This document shows, piece after piece, positions 9,055-30,426 of a DNA stretch of 64,000 bases. The stretch is from Quadrisphaera sp. INWT6. Its GTDB lineage: Bacteria > Actinomycetota > Actinomycetes > Actinomycetales > Quadrisphaeraceae. Below the pieces are notes generated by a model. The model worked only from the letters and a program-made list of their open reading frames with translations. It had not been told where the DNA came from and ran no database searches. Both the position numbers and the translations under genes were made by a program. The stretch covers positions 310,001 to 374,000 of the forward strand of contig NZ_VUOH01000004.1 in NCBI RefSeq assembly GCF_015390235.1, given 5' to 3'. Position 1 is the stretch's first letter. Each line of letters opens with the position of its first letter.

Positions 9055-9387
9055 TCAGCCCTCGACCAGGTCGGTGATCCGGTCGGCGCCGAAGAGCTTG
9101 AGCGCGGTCAGCGGCTGCTTGCTCGCGCCGACCACCCGGAGGCGGTGGGGGCGCACCAGGCGCGCGACCTGCGCCACCAGCCGCATGCCCGAGGAGTCGA
9201 GGAAGGTGACGGCGCTGAGGTCGACGACGCGGACCCCGGTCCACGTCGAGAGCTCGGCGAGCGCCTCGTCGCTGACGGCGACGTCGACCTCCCCGGTCAT
9301 CACGAGCACCTCGGGCCGCTCCGGCGACATCGACACCGAGCCGTAGGGCCCCACGGGTCCCTCGGGCGGTCGCGGATCGTGGTGCAC
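9055..9387 (-). CDS. STAS-domain anti-sigma-factor antagonist (RsbV-like)
   Basis: A 110-residue STAS protein. The phosphoacceptor loop reads VTFLDSSGMRLV (residues 60-71), with the paired serines 65-66 that RsbW-type kinases phosphorylate. Dephosphorylated, such proteins bind the kinase and free its sigma factor. The candidate kinase at 17335 and the SpoIIE phosphatases at 14925 and 29246 could be partners, though none is adjacent. The GTG at 9387 is favoured over the longer frame from 9453 because CAAGAT (complement at 9394-9399) lies 6 nt upstream. Confidence 0.82.
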   Translation of the reverse strand: MHHDPRPPEGPVGPYGSVSMSPERPEVLVMTGEVDVAVSDEALAELSTWTGVRVVDLSAVTFLDSSGMRLVAQVARLVRPHRLRVVGASKQPLTALKLFGADRITDLVEG

Positions 9388-9436
9388 CGCGCCATCTTGC
9401 CAACCGCCCGCCGCGCCGCTGCGGCAGGCTGGATGC

Positions 9437-9748
9437 ATGGGCGGTGGAGGCACGCGCTACGAGTTCGACGCCGAGCTGTGGCGCTGGGAATCGCGCACCG
9501 ACGAGTGGGTGTTCGCACGGCTGCCGCTGGACGCCTCCGACGAGATCGCCGACGTGCCCCGCCCGCGCGCGGGCTTCGGGGCGGTGAGGGTGCGCGTCAC
9601 CCTCGGCGGCAGCCGGTGGACGACGTCGGTCTTCCCCGAGGGCCGCGAGGGCGGCGCGTACGTGCTCCCCGTGAAGAGGTCGGTCAGGACGGCGGAGGGC
9701 GTGGGCCTCGGCGACGTCGTGCGCCTCGCGGTGGAGACCCTCGGCTGA
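9437..9748 (+). CDS. DUF1905-family protein
   Basis: A 103-residue small beta-barrel-like protein matching DUF1905: FDAELWRWES near the start and LGGSRWTTSVFP in the middle are typical. The function of the family is unknown. CAGGCT at 9425-9430, 6 nt before the ATG, fits a leaderless start. It is divergent from the STAS gene across 49 bp and converges on the helicase gene. Confidence 0.75.
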   Translation: MGGGGTRYEFDAELWRWESRTDEWVFARLPLDASDEIADVPRPRAGFGAVRVRVTLGGSRWTTSVFPEGREGGAYVLPVKRSVRTAEGVGLGDVVRLAVETLG

Positions 9749-12689: not shown

Positions 12690-14915
12690 TCAGGCCAGGC
12701 CGAGCACGTCCAGGGCCCAGGCGTCCTCGAAGGCCCGCTCGCGCCACGCCTCGTAGCGCCCCGAGCGGCCGCCGTGCCCGCCGTCGACCTCCGTCTTCAG
12801 CAGCACCTGCGGCGCGCCGTCGCCGGAGAGCAGGCGCATGCGGGAGACCCACTTGAACGGCTCCACGTACAGCACCCGGGTGTCGTGGAGGCTCGTGGTG
12901 ACCAGCACCCGCGGCCAGGTGCCCCACGCGGGCGAGCCCCCGGCCGGGAGGTTCTCGACGGGGGAGTAGCTCTTGATCAGCGCGTAAGCCGCGGCGTCGC
13001 GGATCGGGTCGCCCCACTCCTCCTGCTCGGGGACGGTCAGGGGGAGCGACTCGTCGAGCATGGTGGTGAGCGGGTCGACGAACGGCACCGCCGCGCTCAC
13101 CCCGGTGAACAGGTGCGGCGCGAGGTTCAGCGCCGCCCCGACGAGCAGCCCGCCCGCCGAGCCCCCGGACGCCACCAGCCGTGAGGGGTCGACGAACCCG
13201 GCGGCTCCCAGGTGCTCGGCGACGGCCACGAAGTCGGTGAAGGTGTTCCGCTTGTGCGTGAGCTTGCCGTCGTCGTACCAGTGGCGGCCCATCTCCCCGC
13301 CGCCGCGCACGTGGGCGACGGCGAAGGCGACGCCCCGGTCGAGCATCGACAGCCGCGACGTGGAGAACCACGGGTCGAGGCTGACCTCGTAGCTGCCGTA
13401 GCCGTAGAGGTACCCCGGGGCGGGCTCGCCGGCGGCCGCCACCGACGCGCGGCGCACCACCGAGACCGGCACCCGGACGCCGTCCGGGGCGGTGGCCCAG
13501 GTGCGCTCCTCGACGTAGTCGGCCGCGTCGTACCCGCCGAGCACGGGGGTCTGGCGGCGCAGCAGCACCTCGCCGTCGGACGGGCCGCCCGACAGGTCGA
13601 GGTCGACCACGCGGGTCGGCGTGGTCCACGAGGTCTGCTGCAGCCGCAGCAGCGGGGCCTCGAACGACGGGTTCGACGCCACGCCGCTCGAGGCGAGCGC
13701 CGTCGGCGACGCCACCTCGACCGGGGCGCCGAGCGTCCCGTCGGGCTGCACGCGCAGGACGGCGACGCGGGGGGTCGCCTCGCGCCGCCACGACAGCGCC
13801 ACGTGCCCGGCGAACGCGTCGACGTCCTCCAGGCGCCGGCCCTCCTCGTGGGGCACGATCACCCGCCAGCGCTCGTGCGCGCCCTCCCCGACGTCGGCGG
13901 GGTCGAGCTGGGCGAGCTCGAAGTCGGGGGCGCCGTCGTCGTGCAGCACCAGGAGGACGTCGTGACCGCCGAGCACCGCGTGGTCGACGTGGTGCTCCAC
14001 GCCCTCGCGGCGGCCCGCCACGGAGAGGGGCTCCTCCCCGGGGGCGCGGTCGACGCCGCCGGCGTCGAGCAGCCACACCTCCGAGGTGGTCTTGGACCCG
14101 CTGGACAGCACCAGGTACCGCCCCGAGCGGGTGCGCCCGACGCCGAGCCAGTACCGCTCGTCGTCCTCGCGCAGGACGACGGCGTCGCCCTCGCCGTCGG
14201 GGGAGCTCTCCCCGACGACGTGGCGGCGCACCTCGTGGGGGCGCCAGGCCTCGTCGACGGCGGAGTACAGCAGCGTGCGCGAGTCCGAGCCCCAGGTGGC
14301 GCCGTGGCCCAGCCCCGGGACGGCGACGTCGAGGTCGGCCCCCGTGACCAGGTCGCGCACCCGCAGGGTGAACCGCTCGTCACCGGTGGTGTCGGTCGAC
14401 CAGGCGAGCAGCTGCCCGTCGGGGCTGACCGACGCCGCCCCGAGGGCGAAGAAGGCCTCCCCGCCCAGACGGGGCGCCTCGACGTTGCCGTCGAGCATGA
14501 CCTGCTCGCCCGGCAGCGCGGACCCGTCCTCCGGCAGCACCGGCGGCGTCCACCCGTCAGGTCCGTCGACCGCGGAGGCTGCTTCGACGGCGACGCGGCA
14601 CAGCAACCCGTACTGCTGCCCCTCGACCGTGCGCCGGTAGTACCACCACGCGCCGTCGCGGGCGGGCACGGACAGGTCGCTCTCCTGGGTGCGTCCCTTC
14701 ACCTCCTCGAAGAGCCGCTCGCGCAGCGGCTCCAGGTGGGCGGTGCTGGCGGCGGCCCAGGCGTTCTCGGCCTCGACCAGCGCGCGCACGCGCGGGTCGT
14801 CGGTGTCGCGGAGCCACTCGTGCTCGTCGACGACGACGTCGCCGTGGTGGGTGCGCTCGACGCGCTCCCTGTCGGCGACGGGCGGGGCGGAGGGGGCGAC
14901 GGGAGGGACGCTCAC
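12690..14915 (-). CDS. ptrB: Oligopeptidase B (S9A prolyl-oligopeptidase family)
   Basis: A 741-residue cytoplasmic serine peptidase that cleaves short peptides after basic residues. The first 420 residues form the beta-propeller that excludes large substrates; the rest is the alpha/beta hydrolase domain. The triad is Ser586 (GGSAGG), Asp678 (SLHDTR) and His714 (GGHGG). Length and domain order match protease II. TAGGGT (complement at 14922-14927) followed by 6 nt and GTG supports the start and a leaderless mRNA. It lies 9 bp downstream of the phytochrome-phosphatase stop codon in the same direction. Confidence 0.9.
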   Translation of the reverse strand: MSVPPVAPSAPPVADRERVERTHHGDVVVDEHEWLRDTDDPRVRALVEAENAWAAASTAHLEPLRERLFEEVKGRTQESDLSVPARDGAWWYYRRTVEGQQYGLLCRVAVEAASAVDGPDGWTPPVLPEDGSALPGEQVMLDGNVEAPRLGGEAFFALGAASVSPDGQLLAWSTDTTGDERFTLRVRDLVTGADLDVAVPGLGHGATWGSDSRTLLYSAVDEAWRPHEVRRHVVGESSPDGEGDAVVLREDDERYWLGVGRTRSGRYLVLSSGSKTTSEVWLLDAGGVDRAPGEEPLSVAGRREGVEHHVDHAVLGGHDVLLVLHDDGAPDFELAQLDPADVGEGAHERWRVIVPHEEGRRLEDVDAFAGHVALSWRREATPRVAVLRVQPDGTLGAPVEVASPTALASSGVASNPSFEAPLLRLQQTSWTTPTRVVDLDLSGGPSDGEVLLRRQTPVLGGYDAADYVEERTWATAPDGVRVPVSVVRRASVAAAGEPAPGYLYGYGSYEVSLDPWFSTSRLSMLDRGVAFAVAHVRGGGEMGRHWYDDGKLTHKRNTFTDFVAVAEHLGAAGFVDPSRLVASGGSAGGLLVGAALNLAPHLFTGVSAAVPFVDPLTTMLDESLPLTVPEQEEWGDPIRDAAAYALIKSYSPVENLPAGGSPAWGTWPRVLVTTSLHDTRVLYVEPFKWVSRMRLLSGDGAPQVLLKTEVDGGHGGRSGRYEAWRERAFEDAWALDVLGLA

Positions 14916-14924
14916 CCCCCGACC

Positions 14925-17213
14925 CTACGGAGTCCAGCCGACGGCGAGGACTGTCGTGTCGTCGGCGCGGGCCGAGACCGAGCGGAGCAGGCGGTCGCAC
15001 AGCCCGTCGAGGGAGGCCACCGGTCCGCTGGCGGTCTCGAGCACCCGCTCCAGGCGCTCCTCCCAGCTGCTCCGCCGCTCCTCCACGAGGCCGTCGGAGT
15101 ACAGGACCAGCGCCCCGCCGGCCTCCAGCCGGACCTCGCCGGCCTCGTACGCGGCGTCGTCGAGGAGCCCGAGCGCGGGGCCGGGGCTCACCTGGTCGAC
15201 CAGGGCCGCGGCGCCGTCGGCCCCGCGGACCACCAGCGGCGGGTGCCCGGCCCCGGCGACCTGCGCGCGCCCGGTGGCCGGGTCGACCACCACGACGACG
15301 GCGGTGGCGAGCTCGCCGGCCATCAGGGAGGTCACGAGCTCGTTCAGCCGGTCGAGGGCCTGCGCGGGGTCGCGGGTGGCGAGCACGTGCGCACGCAGCG
15401 CGTTGCGCATCTGGGCGCTGATGGCCGACACCGCCAGGCCGTGCCCGGCGACGTCGCCCAGGACGACGGCGGTGCGGCCGTCGGGCAGCGGGACGATGTC
15501 GTACCAGTCGCCGCCGACGACGTCGTCGCTGTGCGGCACGTACCGCACGGCCAGGTCGAGGCCGGGGACGTCGGGCAGCTTCTCCAGCAGCAGCGTCTGC
15601 TGCAGCGCGGTGGCGAGCCGGTTGGTCCGCTCCACCTCGCGCAGCATCGAGTCGGACAGGTGCTGGGCGAGCCCGAGCGCGGCCTCGACCTCGTGCGGCG
15701 CCCACGCGGTGGCGGTGCGGCGCACCGTCTCGCTCCAGGCGTCGAAGGAGCGCCGCGGAGACAGGCGCAGGTGCCCGCCGCGGTCCTCGACGACCTTGGA
15801 CGAGCGGGGGTCGCCGCCCCAGGTGACCTCGCGCAGCACCTCGGGGCGGAACCAGGCGACCAGGTCGCCGGGCTGACCGCCGACCACGGGTGCGGCGAGC
15901 ACGCCGCTGGCCTCGGCCCAGGCCTCCTCGCCCAGCCAGGGGGCGTCGGCGGCGGCCGCCGAGGTGACCAGCGGGGTCAGCTCGCGGCCCTCCTCGAGGT
16001 CCGCGGCGAACCGGTCGGACAGGGCGGTGACCACGCCCTCGGGCGGGGTGGTGCCGAGCAGGCGCAGCTCGCCGTGCAGGCGCACCGCGACCCCGCCGCA
16101 GGGCACGAGGTCGGCGACGGTCACCTCCTCGCGGGTGAGCGCCTCCACCGGCAGGGCCAGGTGCTCGGCGAGCAGCTCGGTGAGGCGGGCGCGCACCCGC
16201 GCCGAGGCCACCACCTGCGCGTCGGCCTCGCGACCCACCACGGTCGGCAGCAGCAGCGACGCGGTGCGCCCCAGGAACTCCGCCGCGGTGCGCACGGGGA
16301 CGCTCGGGCGGTGGGGCCCGGCGTAGTGGTGGCACGCGATGAGGCCCCAGAGCCGGTCGCCGTGGAGGAGAGAGATGGACATCGAGGCGGCGACGCCCAT
16401 GTTGCGCAGGTACTGCAGGTGCACGGGGGAGACGCTGCGCAGCTGCGCCAGCGACAGGTCGAGCGGCTGGGCGCCGGCCGGTCCGGGGACCAGCGCCGGC
16501 TCCAGCGGCAGCGCCTCGTAGGTGGAGGTGGGGATGATCCGCAGCCACTGCCGCGCGTACAGCGCACGGGCCTGCGCGGGGATGTCGGAGGCGGGGTAGC
16601 GCAGCCCGAGGAAGGGCTCGAGGTCGTCGCGGCGGTCCTCGGCGAGCACCTCCCCGTTCCACTCGGCGTCGAAGCGGTAGACCATGACGCGGTCGAAGCC
16701 GGTGAGGTGGCGCACCCCCGTGGCCAGGCCCTCGGCGAGCCCGGCCACCGAGCGCGCGTCCTGCAGGCGGCGCAGCACCGGGGGCAGCTGCAGGTGCCAG
16801 GGGCTGCCGGGCCCCTCGTCGCCCTCGGCGGCCTCGAGCTCGACGACGGCGGTGCCGCCGTCGACCCGGTGGGCGACGGCGTGGTGCAGGCGGCCCGACC
16901 CGGACGGCAGCTCGACGGGGGCGGGCGTGCTGGCCTCCGCGTCCTCCCCGGAGGCGACGGCGCGCACCAGGTCGGCCAGCGGTCCCGACAGCTCCGCCAG
17001 GTCGCCGCCGGCCACCGCCTGCGGGCCGAGCGCGGCGGCGGCGCCCGCCGACGCGGTCAGCACGGGCAGGGCGCCCGGCGAGCGGGTGTCGACGGCCAGC
17101 AGGTGGCCGTGGGGCTGCACGCTGCCCGGCACGCGGATCGGCTCGTCGGCGCACGCCGCGGCCGCCGCCTCCAGCGCCGTCTCCTGTGCCGTCTCCTGTG
17201 CGGTGTCGGGCAC
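14925..17213 (-). CDS. Bacteriophytochrome fused to a SpoIIE/PP2C phosphatase
   Basis: A 762-residue red/far-red photoreceptor with a phosphatase output. PAS: Cys21, just before EPIRVPGSVQPHG, occupies the biliverdin-attachment site of bacteriophytochromes. GAF (about 150-320): PASDIP with Asp210, His265 in SPVHLQYLRNMGV and His295-296 in CHHYAG, all chromophore-pocket residues. PHY (about 330-510): tongue motif PRRSF at 486-490. SpoIIE (about 545-762): metal ligands in VGGDWYD (566-572), GDVAGHG (586-592), YSDGLVE and ADDTTVL. All landmarks of a working receptor and phosphatase are present. The likely substrate is a phosphorylated STAS antagonist, linking light to sigma-factor release. It is divergent from an RsbW-like kinase gene. 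No heme oxygenase is in the window. Confidence 0.9.
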   Translation of the reverse strand: MPDTAQETAQETALEAAAAACADEPIRVPGSVQPHGHLLAVDTRSPGALPVLTASAGAAAALGPQAVAGGDLAELSGPLADLVRAVASGEDAEASTPAPVELPSGSGRLHHAVAHRVDGGTAVVELEAAEGDEGPGSPWHLQLPPVLRRLQDARSVAGLAEGLATGVRHLTGFDRVMVYRFDAEWNGEVLAEDRRDDLEPFLGLRYPASDIPAQARALYARQWLRIIPTSTYEALPLEPALVPGPAGAQPLDLSLAQLRSVSPVHLQYLRNMGVAASMSISLLHGDRLWGLIACHHYAGPHRPSVPVRTAAEFLGRTASLLLPTVVGREADAQVVASARVRARLTELLAEHLALPVEALTREEVTVADLVPCGGVAVRLHGELRLLGTTPPEGVVTALSDRFAADLEEGRELTPLVTSAAAADAPWLGEEAWAEASGVLAAPVVGGQPGDLVAWFRPEVLREVTWGGDPRSSKVVEDRGGHLRLSPRRSFDAWSETVRRTATAWAPHEVEAALGLAQHLSDSMLREVERTNRLATALQQTLLLEKLPDVPGLDLAVRYVPHSDDVVGGDWYDIVPLPDGRTAVVLGDVAGHGLAVSAISAQMRNALRAHVLATRDPAQALDRLNELVTSLMAGELATAVVVVVDPATGRAQVAGAGHPPLVVRGADGAAALVDQVSPGPALGLLDDAAYEAGEVRLEAGGALVLYSDGLVEERRSSWEERLERVLETASGPVASLDGLCDRLLRSVSARADDTTVLAVGWTP

Positions 17214-17245
17214 GGAGCTCCAGCCGTCGTCGTCGGTCCGGCGCT

Positions 17246-17276
17246 CACGGGGCGTGGGGCGCTGTGCACGGGGCGT
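17246..17276. promoter_or_regulatory. Two 10-bp direct repeats 21 bp apart
   Basis: CACGGGGCGT occurs at 17246-17255 and 17267-17276, exactly two helical turns apart, in the intergenic region between the phytochrome-phosphatase and the kinase. A dimeric activator or repressor could bind both on one face of the DNA. The factor is unknown. Confidence 0.4.
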
Positions 17277-17334
17277 GCCGTGCCATCATCGCACCCTGCG
17301 CGCCAGCGCACCGGCCGACGACCTGGAGGATCCC

Positions 17335-17817
17335 GTGCACCTCAGCTACGGGCTCCGCCTGCCCACCGACGTGCGGCACGTGCCGGTGGTCCGCCACCTG
17401 GCCACCGCCACCCTGCGCGAGCTCGGGGTGCGGCGCGAGAGCATCGACGACATCGCCCTGGCGGTCACCGAGGCGTGCGCGAACGTGGTCCAGCACGCCG
17501 GCGCTGCGGCCAGCGGGCACAGCGACTTCGAGGTGCGCGTCTCGGTCGAGGGCGTCTGGTGCCGCATCGAGGTCGTCGACTCCGGGGCGGGGTTCGACCC
17601 CGAGCAGGCCGCGGCCGACGTCCGCGAGGAGGGGCCGATCGCCGAGCTGACGCACGGGCGCGGCCTGGGGCTGATGCGGGTGCTGATGGACGAGCTGCAC
17701 TTCGAGCCGGGCGAGAACGGCACCACCGTGGTGCTGCTCAAGCGGCTCCAGCTGCGCGAGGGGTCGGTGCTGGCAGCAGAGGGCCCCGGCACCCCCGTGG
17801 GGGGCACCGGGGCCTGA
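17335..17817 (+). CDS. RsbW-like anti-sigma factor serine kinase
   Basis: A 160-residue GHKL ATPase. N box EACANVVQHA near residue 45, G1 box DSGAGFDP near 82 and G2 box GRGLGLMRVLMD near 107. Such proteins hold a sigma factor inactive and phosphorylate a STAS antagonist. The GTG start has GGAGG at 17325-17329. The last 20 residues are an unstructured Gly/Pro tail. The divergent gene encodes a light-sensing SpoIIE phosphatase, whose natural job would be to reverse this kinase's phosphorylation. No sigma-factor gene is adjacent, so the target is not visible. Confidence 0.88.
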   Translation: MHLSYGLRLPTDVRHVPVVRHLATATLRELGVRRESIDDIALAVTEACANVVQHAGAAASGHSDFEVRVSVEGVWCRIEVVDSGAGFDPEQAAADVREEGPIAELTHGRGLGLMRVLMDELHFEPGENGTTVVLLKRLQLREGSVLAAEGPGTPVGGTGA

Positions 17818-29245: not shown

Positions 29246-30382
29246 TCAGCGGCGGGCGCGGGCGGCGAGGACGGCGACGTCGTCGTCGTGCCGGCCCTCC
29301 AGCACGGCGGGGATGACGGTGTCGAGCATCTGGTCGAGGCCCTGGTGGGCCTCCCGCTCGATCGCCGCGCAGAGCAGGCGCGTCCCGGTGTCGAGGTCGG
29401 TGTCCCGCCGCTCCACCAGTCCGTCGGTGTGCAGGACCAGCGTGGCCCCCAGGGGGAGCTCGGCGGTGTGGTCCGCGCGCGGCACCCCGGGCAGCGCCCC
29501 GAGCAGCAGGTCGGCCGGCGCCTCCAGCGGGGTCGCTCTGACACCCGAGCCACCCGAGCCACCCGAGCCACCCGGCAGCAGCAGGACCGGCGGCGGGTGG
29601 CCGGCGCTCGACCACGTGATGCACAGCGGGGCGCCGTCGACCTCGGGGCGGGTCACGCGGACGACGACGGCGGTCGCCAGCGCGTCGATGCCGAGGCGCT
29701 CCAAGGCGGTCTCGGTGCGGGTCAGCACCTGCGAGGGCTGCTGGCCCCCCTCGACGGCGTAGGCGCGCAGCACCGCGCGGATCTGCCCCATCGCGGCCGC
29801 CGCTGCGATGTCGTGGCCGGTGACGTCGCCGATGACGAGCGTGGTGGACCCGTCGCGGTCGACCAGCGCGTCGTACCAGTCGCCCCCCACCTGGTCGCCC
29901 TGGCTGGCGGGGACGTACCGGCTGGCGAGCTCCAGCTGCTCGGGGTCGGGCAGGTGGGTGAGCATCGCCGCCTGCAGCGTGCGCGCCGCCTGGCGGCGGT
30001 CCTGCAGCTGCGCCAGGTGCGACTGCCGCACCCCGGCGACGGCCGCGGCCACGCTCGTGGCGACCGCCACCACCGAGGCGCTCGCGATGGTGGTGAGCAT
30101 CGGCGTCCCGTCGACCACGCACATCAGCGCGGCCAGGGCCGCCGCCAGCAGCCCGACCACCACCACGTGCCTGCGGGCCCCGCCGATGGCCGTCAGCGTG
30201 GGGGCCAGCGCCAGGGTGCCGGAGATGTTCGCCGCCGCCGGGTCTCCTGACAGGACGGCGAGCACCAGGTCGAGCAGGGCCAGGCCCGCGCTGGCCGCGA
30301 GCCCCAGCCACAGCCACCTCTGCGTCGGACGCAGTTGGTGCTCGCCCGCCGGTGGGCGGGGCGGCGACGTGGGGGCGCTCAC
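29246..30382 (-). CDS. Membrane-anchored SpoIIE/PP2C phosphatase
   Basis: A 378-residue protein. Residues about 25-120 contain four or so transmembrane helices. The rest is a SpoIIE phosphatase with metal-binding VGGDWYD, IGDVTGHD, HTDGLVE and DDDVAVL. A Gly-Ser linker (GGSGGSGGSG) encoded by a 9-bp tandem repeat at 29542-29570 interrupts the domain. It probably dephosphorylates a STAS antagonist in response to a membrane signal. GTG 30382 is favoured over GTG 30400 because CACCCT (complement at 30389-30394) is 6 nt upstream. It is the second phosphatase of this class in the window. Confidence 0.87.
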   Translation of the reverse strand: MSAPTSPPRPPAGEHQLRPTQRWLWLGLAASAGLALLDLVLAVLSGDPAAANISGTLALAPTLTAIGGARRHVVVVGLLAAALAALMCVVDGTPMLTTIASASVVAVATSVAAAVAGVRQSHLAQLQDRRQAARTLQAAMLTHLPDPEQLELASRYVPASQGDQVGGDWYDALVDRDGSTTLVIGDVTGHDIAAAAAMGQIRAVLRAYAVEGGQQPSQVLTRTETALERLGIDALATAVVVRVTRPEVDGAPLCITWSSAGHPPPVLLLPGGSGGSGGSGVRATPLEAPADLLLGALPGVPRADHTAELPLGATLVLHTDGLVERRDTDLDTGTRLLCAAIEREAHQGLDQMLDTVIPAVLEGRHDDDVAVLAARARR

Positions 30383-30426
30383 CCGCCCAGGGTGCCGCAC
30401 GCAGCTGGTGGGGGTAGGCAGGAGCC

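Follow-up and report, generated by a model that had tools for sequence, protein, structure and literature searches.

The 64,000-nucleotide window of Quadrisphaera sp. INWT6 analyzed here (contig NZ_VUOH01000004.1) contains a gene for a phytochrome–SpoIIE fusion protein and, transcribed in the opposite direction, a gene for an RsbW-like serine kinase, hereafter KIN. The divergent starts of the two genes are separated by 121 bp. The features of this pair are listed below, with positions counted from the first letter of the window.

14925..17213, reverse strand: phytochrome–SpoIIE fusion gene, 762 amino acids from a GTG start, defined by its open reading frame and Pfam domain matches
16827..17153, reverse strand: PAS_2 domain, residues 21–129, with Cys21 at the domain start (Pfam, 50.7 bits)
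16269..16727, reverse strand: GAF domain, residues 163–315, holding PASDIP, H265, and H295 (Pfam, 47.3 bits)
15636..16190, reverse strand: PHY domain, residues 342–526, holding the PRRSF tongue motif (Pfam, 129.6 bits)
15591..15698, reverse strand: helical linker, residues 506–541, modeled by AlphaFold2 as a single continuous helix
14934..15485, reverse strand: SpoIIE/PPM phosphatase domain, residues 577–760, with D587, D707, and D751/D752 (Pfam SpoIIE, 152.3 bits)
17335..17817, forward strand: KIN, 160 amino acids, with E46, N50, DSGAG, and GRGLGL (HATPase_c_2, 99.4 bits)

The fusion protein and its distribution

The fusion gene encodes a complete bacteriophytochrome sensor (PAS-GAF-PHY) joined to a phosphatase of the SpoIIE/RsbU type. 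This confirms the first-pass annotation, which had proposed a complete phytochrome photosensor in one protein with a SpoIIE phosphatase bearing all metal motifs: PAS_2, GAF, PHY, and SpoIIE each score over their Pfam cut-off, and every residue named there is present. In the sensor these are C21, PASDIP around D210, H265, H295, and PRRSF (R487 and S489); in the phosphatase they are GGDWYD (D569, which sits just ahead of the Pfam SpoIIE boundary at residue 577), GDVAGHG (D587), SDGLVE (D707), and ADDTT (D751 and D752). The cysteine is of the biliverdin type, lying in the N-terminal segment as C21, and a valine precedes H265 at the GAF position that we take to be the chromophore cysteine site of plant and Cph1 phytochromes. 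The best sequence match of the sensor half (residues 15–527) in the PDB is 6bap at 2.2e-94, so that the sensor assignment is not a matter of chance, and Foldseek aligns the sensor with the same structure over 527 columns. The phosphatase half matches 3ke6 (Rv1364c) best, at 1.4e-23, and SpoIIE more weakly. The PHY domain has a single match in its own genome by profile search.

Among 52 aligned rows (51 of them distinct), D210, H265, H295, R487, S489, D569, D587, D707, D751, and D752 are invariant in all 52, and Cys21 is present in every row that reaches it, one row ending before this position. The chromophore and metal residues are likewise invariant, with the same Cys21 exception, in a separate 49-row alignment drawn from 52 distinct rows with L082, L087, and L098 left out. 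The conservation of H295 and of part of PASDIP in rows from the named-genome scan is partly preselected because the scan patterns LWGL[IV]ACH and FLGL[HR]YPAS contain these residues; rows from the genome-set search carry no such motif preselection. Sequence L027, from a same-genus relative (G003), reads PATDIP and was skipped by the motif filter; it is included in the 49-row alignment and left out of the 52-row residue table and of the sensor tree described below.

The segment joining sensor to phosphatase has a single length throughout the 49-row alignment: W504 and Q538 are 34 residues apart in 49 of 49 sequences, and a further 30 residues lead from Q538 to G568, again in all 49. As a control, 27 segments between conserved anchors were compared: 12 have a single length (two of them being the linker segments and most others lying in the GAF core) and the remaining 15 show 2 to 15 lengths, so that the linker is as rigid as the GAF core rather than unique. 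In an AlphaFold2 monomer model built from 49 rows (mean pLDDT 87.7, pTM 0.69), the linker helix is predicted with pLDDT 84–96 over the five 10-residue blocks that span it, and the tongue at residues 468–492 is modeled at low confidence. The mean hydrophobicity of residues 507–541 is periodic at 3.5–3.6, a strength equaled by 35 of 2000 shuffles. As judged from this model, the fusion has the helical linker entering the phosphatase that characterizes the RsbU group.

A sensor match at 1e-40 was found in 15 of 59 genomes, that of the window included, of which 13 carry the SpoIIE part; the translations of the other two have a GGDEF-like C-terminal sequence. Within the window's family, 7 of 13 genomes have the phytochrome. 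The named-genome scan, from which the best 80 loci were kept, yielded 41 loci with the fusion, one of which (L067) is a contig of the same-genus relative G005; the other 40 come from Geodermatophilaceae, Cellulomonadaceae, Promicromonosporaceae, Nocardioidaceae, Frankiaceae, Mycobacteriaceae, and others. In a 90-row sensor tree of the best 80 loci plus relatives (a quick, unrooted tree with SH-aLRT support only), the 51 SpoIIE-linked rows are all actinobacterial and lie on one side of a single branch with a support of 99. To judge from these sequences, the fusion is an established actinobacterial lineage, neither an oddity of this genome nor unique to it.

The divergent kinase and its locus in relatives

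At E <= 0.001, RsbW (6m36 and 6m37) is the sole sequence match of KIN in the PDB, with 6m36 covering residues 7–138 at 3.7e-12. KIN keeps the marks of a GHKL ATPase, namely E46, N50, and both G boxes; Glu46 and Asn50 are presumably the catalytic residues. The first-pass annotation had placed an RsbW-like kinase 122 bp away in the opposite direction and named it the likely partner of the phytochrome. Its RsbW-like character and its orientation stand and the gap is corrected by one base pair. The proposed partnership gains from the comparison with relatives. In our numbering G000 is the window's own genome, G001–G005 are same-genus relatives, and G008 is a member of another genus of the same family. 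KIN is divergent from the phytochrome gene in G000, G001, G002, G003, G004, and G008, that is, in all six genomes, from two genera, that have this flank on the contig. The contig of G005 starts within the phytochrome gene, and a search of the remainder of that genome at 1e-15 gave no KIN.

In G008, KIN and the phytochrome gene have a STAS gene between them (positions compared across searches), and in Geodermatophilus poikilotrophus and Blastococcus massiliensis, both Geodermatophilaceae, KIN is followed by a STAS gene and the phytochrome gene on the opposite strand. These three loci are triads of the RsbU/RsbV/RsbW type, an arrangement newly described here, in which phosphatase, STAS antagonist, and kinase are encoded together; the window's locus encodes the phosphatase and the kinase. 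The KINs of G. poikilotrophus and B. massiliensis are 46–47% identical to that of the window, the three triad STAS proteins form one clade (support 96/90), and the phytochromes of the three triad loci fall within the window's 11-row subclade of the sensor tree. We infer from these comparisons that the ancestral locus probably comprised the full phosphatase–antagonist–kinase set, the antagonist having been lost or relocated in the window's genus.

Within ~4 kb of the fusion gene, 13 of the 40 named loci have a STAS gene, five have a KIN-like gene, and four (L068, L069, L080, and L100) have both; the density of the window's own genome predicts ~0.03 STAS genes per 8 kb, and the 13 STAS-bearing loci are not independent given that many are close relatives. 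Because the home-made KIN and STAS models behind these counts include some of the sequences that they detect, Pfam serves as the independent check: applied to 8 of the 13 STAS genes and to all five KIN-like genes, it confirms each of them. A heme oxygenase gene lies within the same distance in 5 of the 40 loci, one of the five being weak and cut, and Pfam confirms the four to which it was applied.

Four other features of the window were considered.

17280..17295, forward strand: conserved element GTGCCATCATCGCACC, 39 bp upstream of KIN
12690..14915, reverse strand: prolyl oligopeptidase-family gene, separated by 9 bp from the end of the phytochrome gene
9055..9453, reverse strand: STAS protein, a weak candidate partner
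29246–30400: second SpoIIE phosphatase

The element is kept in all six phytochrome–KIN loci, with one mismatch in G008. It is probably the extended −10 promoter region of KIN, since similar but degenerate sequences, recognized by eye, precede KIN in two further members of the family, G007 and G010. We think it unlikely to be the operator of a light regulon: across G000, G001, G004, and G008 it has five off-locus matches with at most two mismatches, against six for a reversed control. One off-locus match in the window's own genome (C1:919815) has a single mismatch. The prolyl oligopeptidase-family gene and the phytochrome gene are possibly on one transcript; the former trails the latter in G001–G005 as well and is not known to be tied to the switch.

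The first-pass annotation had also drawn attention to the STAS protein at 9055 and to the second phosphatase at 29246. Both are real, and neither is unusual for this genome, which has 15 STAS matches, 30 SpoIIE matches (~27 genes, because three genes look split in two), and 37 HATPase_c_2 matches of which 29 are over the cut-off. At such densities ~0.2 STAS and ~0.4 SpoIIE genes are expected per 64 kb, so that one further gene of each kind in the window is not remarkable. The STAS protein is conserved near the locus in G001, G002, and G004, which speaks in its favor. However, we regard it as an unlikely dedicated partner: it clusters with these orthologues and apart from the triad STAS clade, and in G003, which keeps both phytochrome and kinase, neither tblastn nor the three reverse-strand frames revealed a STAS at the corresponding position. 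The second phosphatase has an apparent N-terminal membrane segment in its sequence. Elsewhere in the genome (C2:881253-882758), a STAS gene adjoins an RsbW-like gene, likely as a canonical RsbV–RsbW pair.

Biliverdin supply

Given the residues described above, the sensor would be expected to bind biliverdin, the product of heme oxygenase. The first-pass annotation had counted the lack of a heme oxygenase gene against its own interpretation, and a profile search with PF01126 found none in the window's own assembly, which is 91.42% complete. Taken at face value this result goes against light sensing, but an assembly gap is its best explanation. Heme oxygenase is present in six of the seven phytochrome-bearing genomes of the family, the seventh being that of the window, versus none of the six others, and it is found in all five same-genus relatives. 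In G001, ileS is ~3 kb away from its gene and folC ~2 kb, and the surrounding DNA keeps this order in the other five heme oxygenase-bearing genomes of the family. The ileS gene is missing from the window's assembly (best score 209 bits, where the cut-off is 621 and 14 of 14 control genomes pass it), and the 12-kb stretch around the heme oxygenase gene of the closest relative has just one 69% match of ~400 bases in this genome. Since ileS is essential and is missing along with its neighbor, the heme oxygenase gene most likely lies in the assembly gap. We consider its loss from the organism unlikely given that ileS, the tested 12-kb region, and heme oxygenase are missing together. The assembly is thus incomplete at an essential locus, being without ileS and the tested 12 kb of the ileS–folC–heme oxygenase region. 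Of the eight phytochrome genomes outside the family, five have heme oxygenase and G042, G045, and G057 do not; in four named loci its gene is directly beside that of the phytochrome.

A proposed light-gated partner switch

The outputs of most bacteriophytochromes studied so far are histidine kinases or cyclases. The fusion resembles SaBphP1 (6bap), DrBphP, and Agp1 in its whole PAS-GAF-PHY sensor, the cysteine of the N-terminal segment, the DIP motif, the two histidines, and PRxSF, and differs from them in that its output is a Ser/Thr phosphatase rather than a histidine kinase. As in RsbU and RsbP of Bacillus subtilis and in Rv1364c (PMC12143880; PDB 3ke6), its PPM phosphatase follows a helical linker, dimeric in those proteins and presumably so in the fusion; their sensors, however, are an RsbT-binding bundle or PAS domains instead of a full phytochrome. 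The switching of RsbU, as described in the sections of PMC12143880 that concern it, runs through a helical linker, which brings the phosphatase domains together as a dimer along with their switch helices. A helical linker also joins phytochrome to enzyme in the phytochrome-activated diguanylate cyclases (PadC), although these linkers occur in several lengths according to the relevant part of PMC9587094, in contrast to the one length of the fusion linker in 49 of 49 sequences.

We think it fairly probable that the protein is a biliverdin-binding phytochrome acting as a light-gated RsbU, together with a STAS antagonist, KIN, and a sigma factor or other client. Light, whatever the direction of its effect, would alter the tongue and the sensor dimer, and the one 36-residue helix would pass this change on to the phosphatase, where the first helices would act as the metal-binding switch. 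The enzyme would then remove phosphate from the STAS antagonist; the dephosphorylated STAS protein would capture the divergently encoded KIN, freeing the sigma factor or other client, and KIN would rephosphorylate the STAS protein. A phytochrome dimer driving an RsbU-like linker would be the simplest reading of this architecture. We are evenly balanced on a fuller version, in which red/far-red light would drive STAS dephosphorylation via a helix of fixed length, the ancestral locus would have had its own STAS and kinase genes, and the whole would form a one-step input to a sigma factor in actinobacteria.

Several observations count against this interpretation. Other segments besides the linker also have a fixed length, as the anchor control indicates, and the structural model is a monomer with a pTM of 0.69, so that domain placement is less certain than the helix. 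The STAS gene between KIN and phytochrome is absent in the 121-bp gap of the window and in G001–G004, and none of the 13 own-genome STAS proteins placed in the tree (of 15 in the genome; L181 and L184 scored too low) falls in the triad clade. No sigma factor is encoded among five window genes checked. Among the 40 named loci, some with flanks that end at a contig edge, 35 have no KIN-like gene and 27 no STAS gene within ~4 kb. KIN is present in G007 and G010 (90% and 76% complete), which have no phytochrome match, and may therefore have other inputs; it adjoins OsmC in both, and in G010 an S9 peptidase gene directly follows KIN with no phytochrome between. The KIN of G007 (L193 7615-8109) has the Asp of its ATP-site DxG box replaced by Glu. 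Finally, G042, G045, and G057 carry the phytochrome–SpoIIE fusion (L030, L033, and L034) with all chromophore residues kept and yielded no PF01126 heme oxygenase.

An alternative that we consider rather unlikely is that the light-gated phosphatase acts on an unlinked STAS protein with a different kinase, KIN being an old neighbor with its own inputs. It would account for the lack of a STAS gene at the locus in the window's genus and for KIN in the two phytochrome-less genomes, and the genome's many STAS, SpoIIE, and HATPase_c_2 matches make it rich in candidates; however, the divergent pair kept in six of six genomes of two genera and the triads of G008 and the two Geodermatophilaceae speak against it. 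It is also conceivable, but in our view improbable, that the partner switch is real and its client is something other than a sigma factor, such as a developmental regulator, a cyclase, or a secretion step. RsbW-like proteins with non-sigma targets are known, and none of the five checked genes encodes a sigma factor; on the other side, RsbW is the only PDB sequence match of KIN at E <= 0.001, and no alternative client was identified. That the sensor has lost light sensing here for want of biliverdin and answers temperature, redox, or a ligand is very hard to credit: the missing heme oxygenase favors it, but ileS is missing as well, all five same-genus relatives have heme oxygenase, and the chromophore residues are invariant. 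Compared with these alternatives, the light-gated partner switch with KIN as partner is our preferred reading, and the interpretation given in the first-pass annotation is, as a whole, partly supported.

Related light-sensing proteins have been described. SpoIIE/PPM is already named as a phytochrome effector class with the architecture of the fusion in PMC9587094, where the portion dealing with it consists of a figure legend and a general remark on phosphatase control, with no biochemistry or partner genes in that portion. The flavin-based LOV/BLUF–SpoIIE proteins also couple a light sensor to a SpoIIE-type output, but theirs are blue-light sensors, as far as the account in PMC4844311 goes. 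For the photocobilin SasPcob, a B12/bilin sensor, the connection with STAS, SpoIIE, and PP2C proteins is, in the passages of PMC10979010 that mention it, a predicted interaction and not a phytochrome fusion. In B. subtilis, SigB is activated by blue and red light according to the abstract-level account of PMC3019169, and blue light acts on sigma-B control via the stressosome in the corresponding part of PMC12143880. We found no paper with a phytochrome partner switch as its subject in the open-access literature as judged by titles and the starts of abstracts, which is not proof of absence. As for the kinase, KIN and RsbW (6m36) are alike in their ATPase motifs, and the window KIN differs in having no adjoining STAS gene and no sigma factor among the five genes checked.

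The fusion thus belongs to an actinobacterial clade of phytochrome-phosphatases, some with their own STAS and kinase genes, in which direct control of a partner switch by red light would be testable with three small proteins. With its light-switchable sensor, the fusion may also serve as a test of the general linker mechanism proposed for RsbU in the sections of PMC12143880 cited above.

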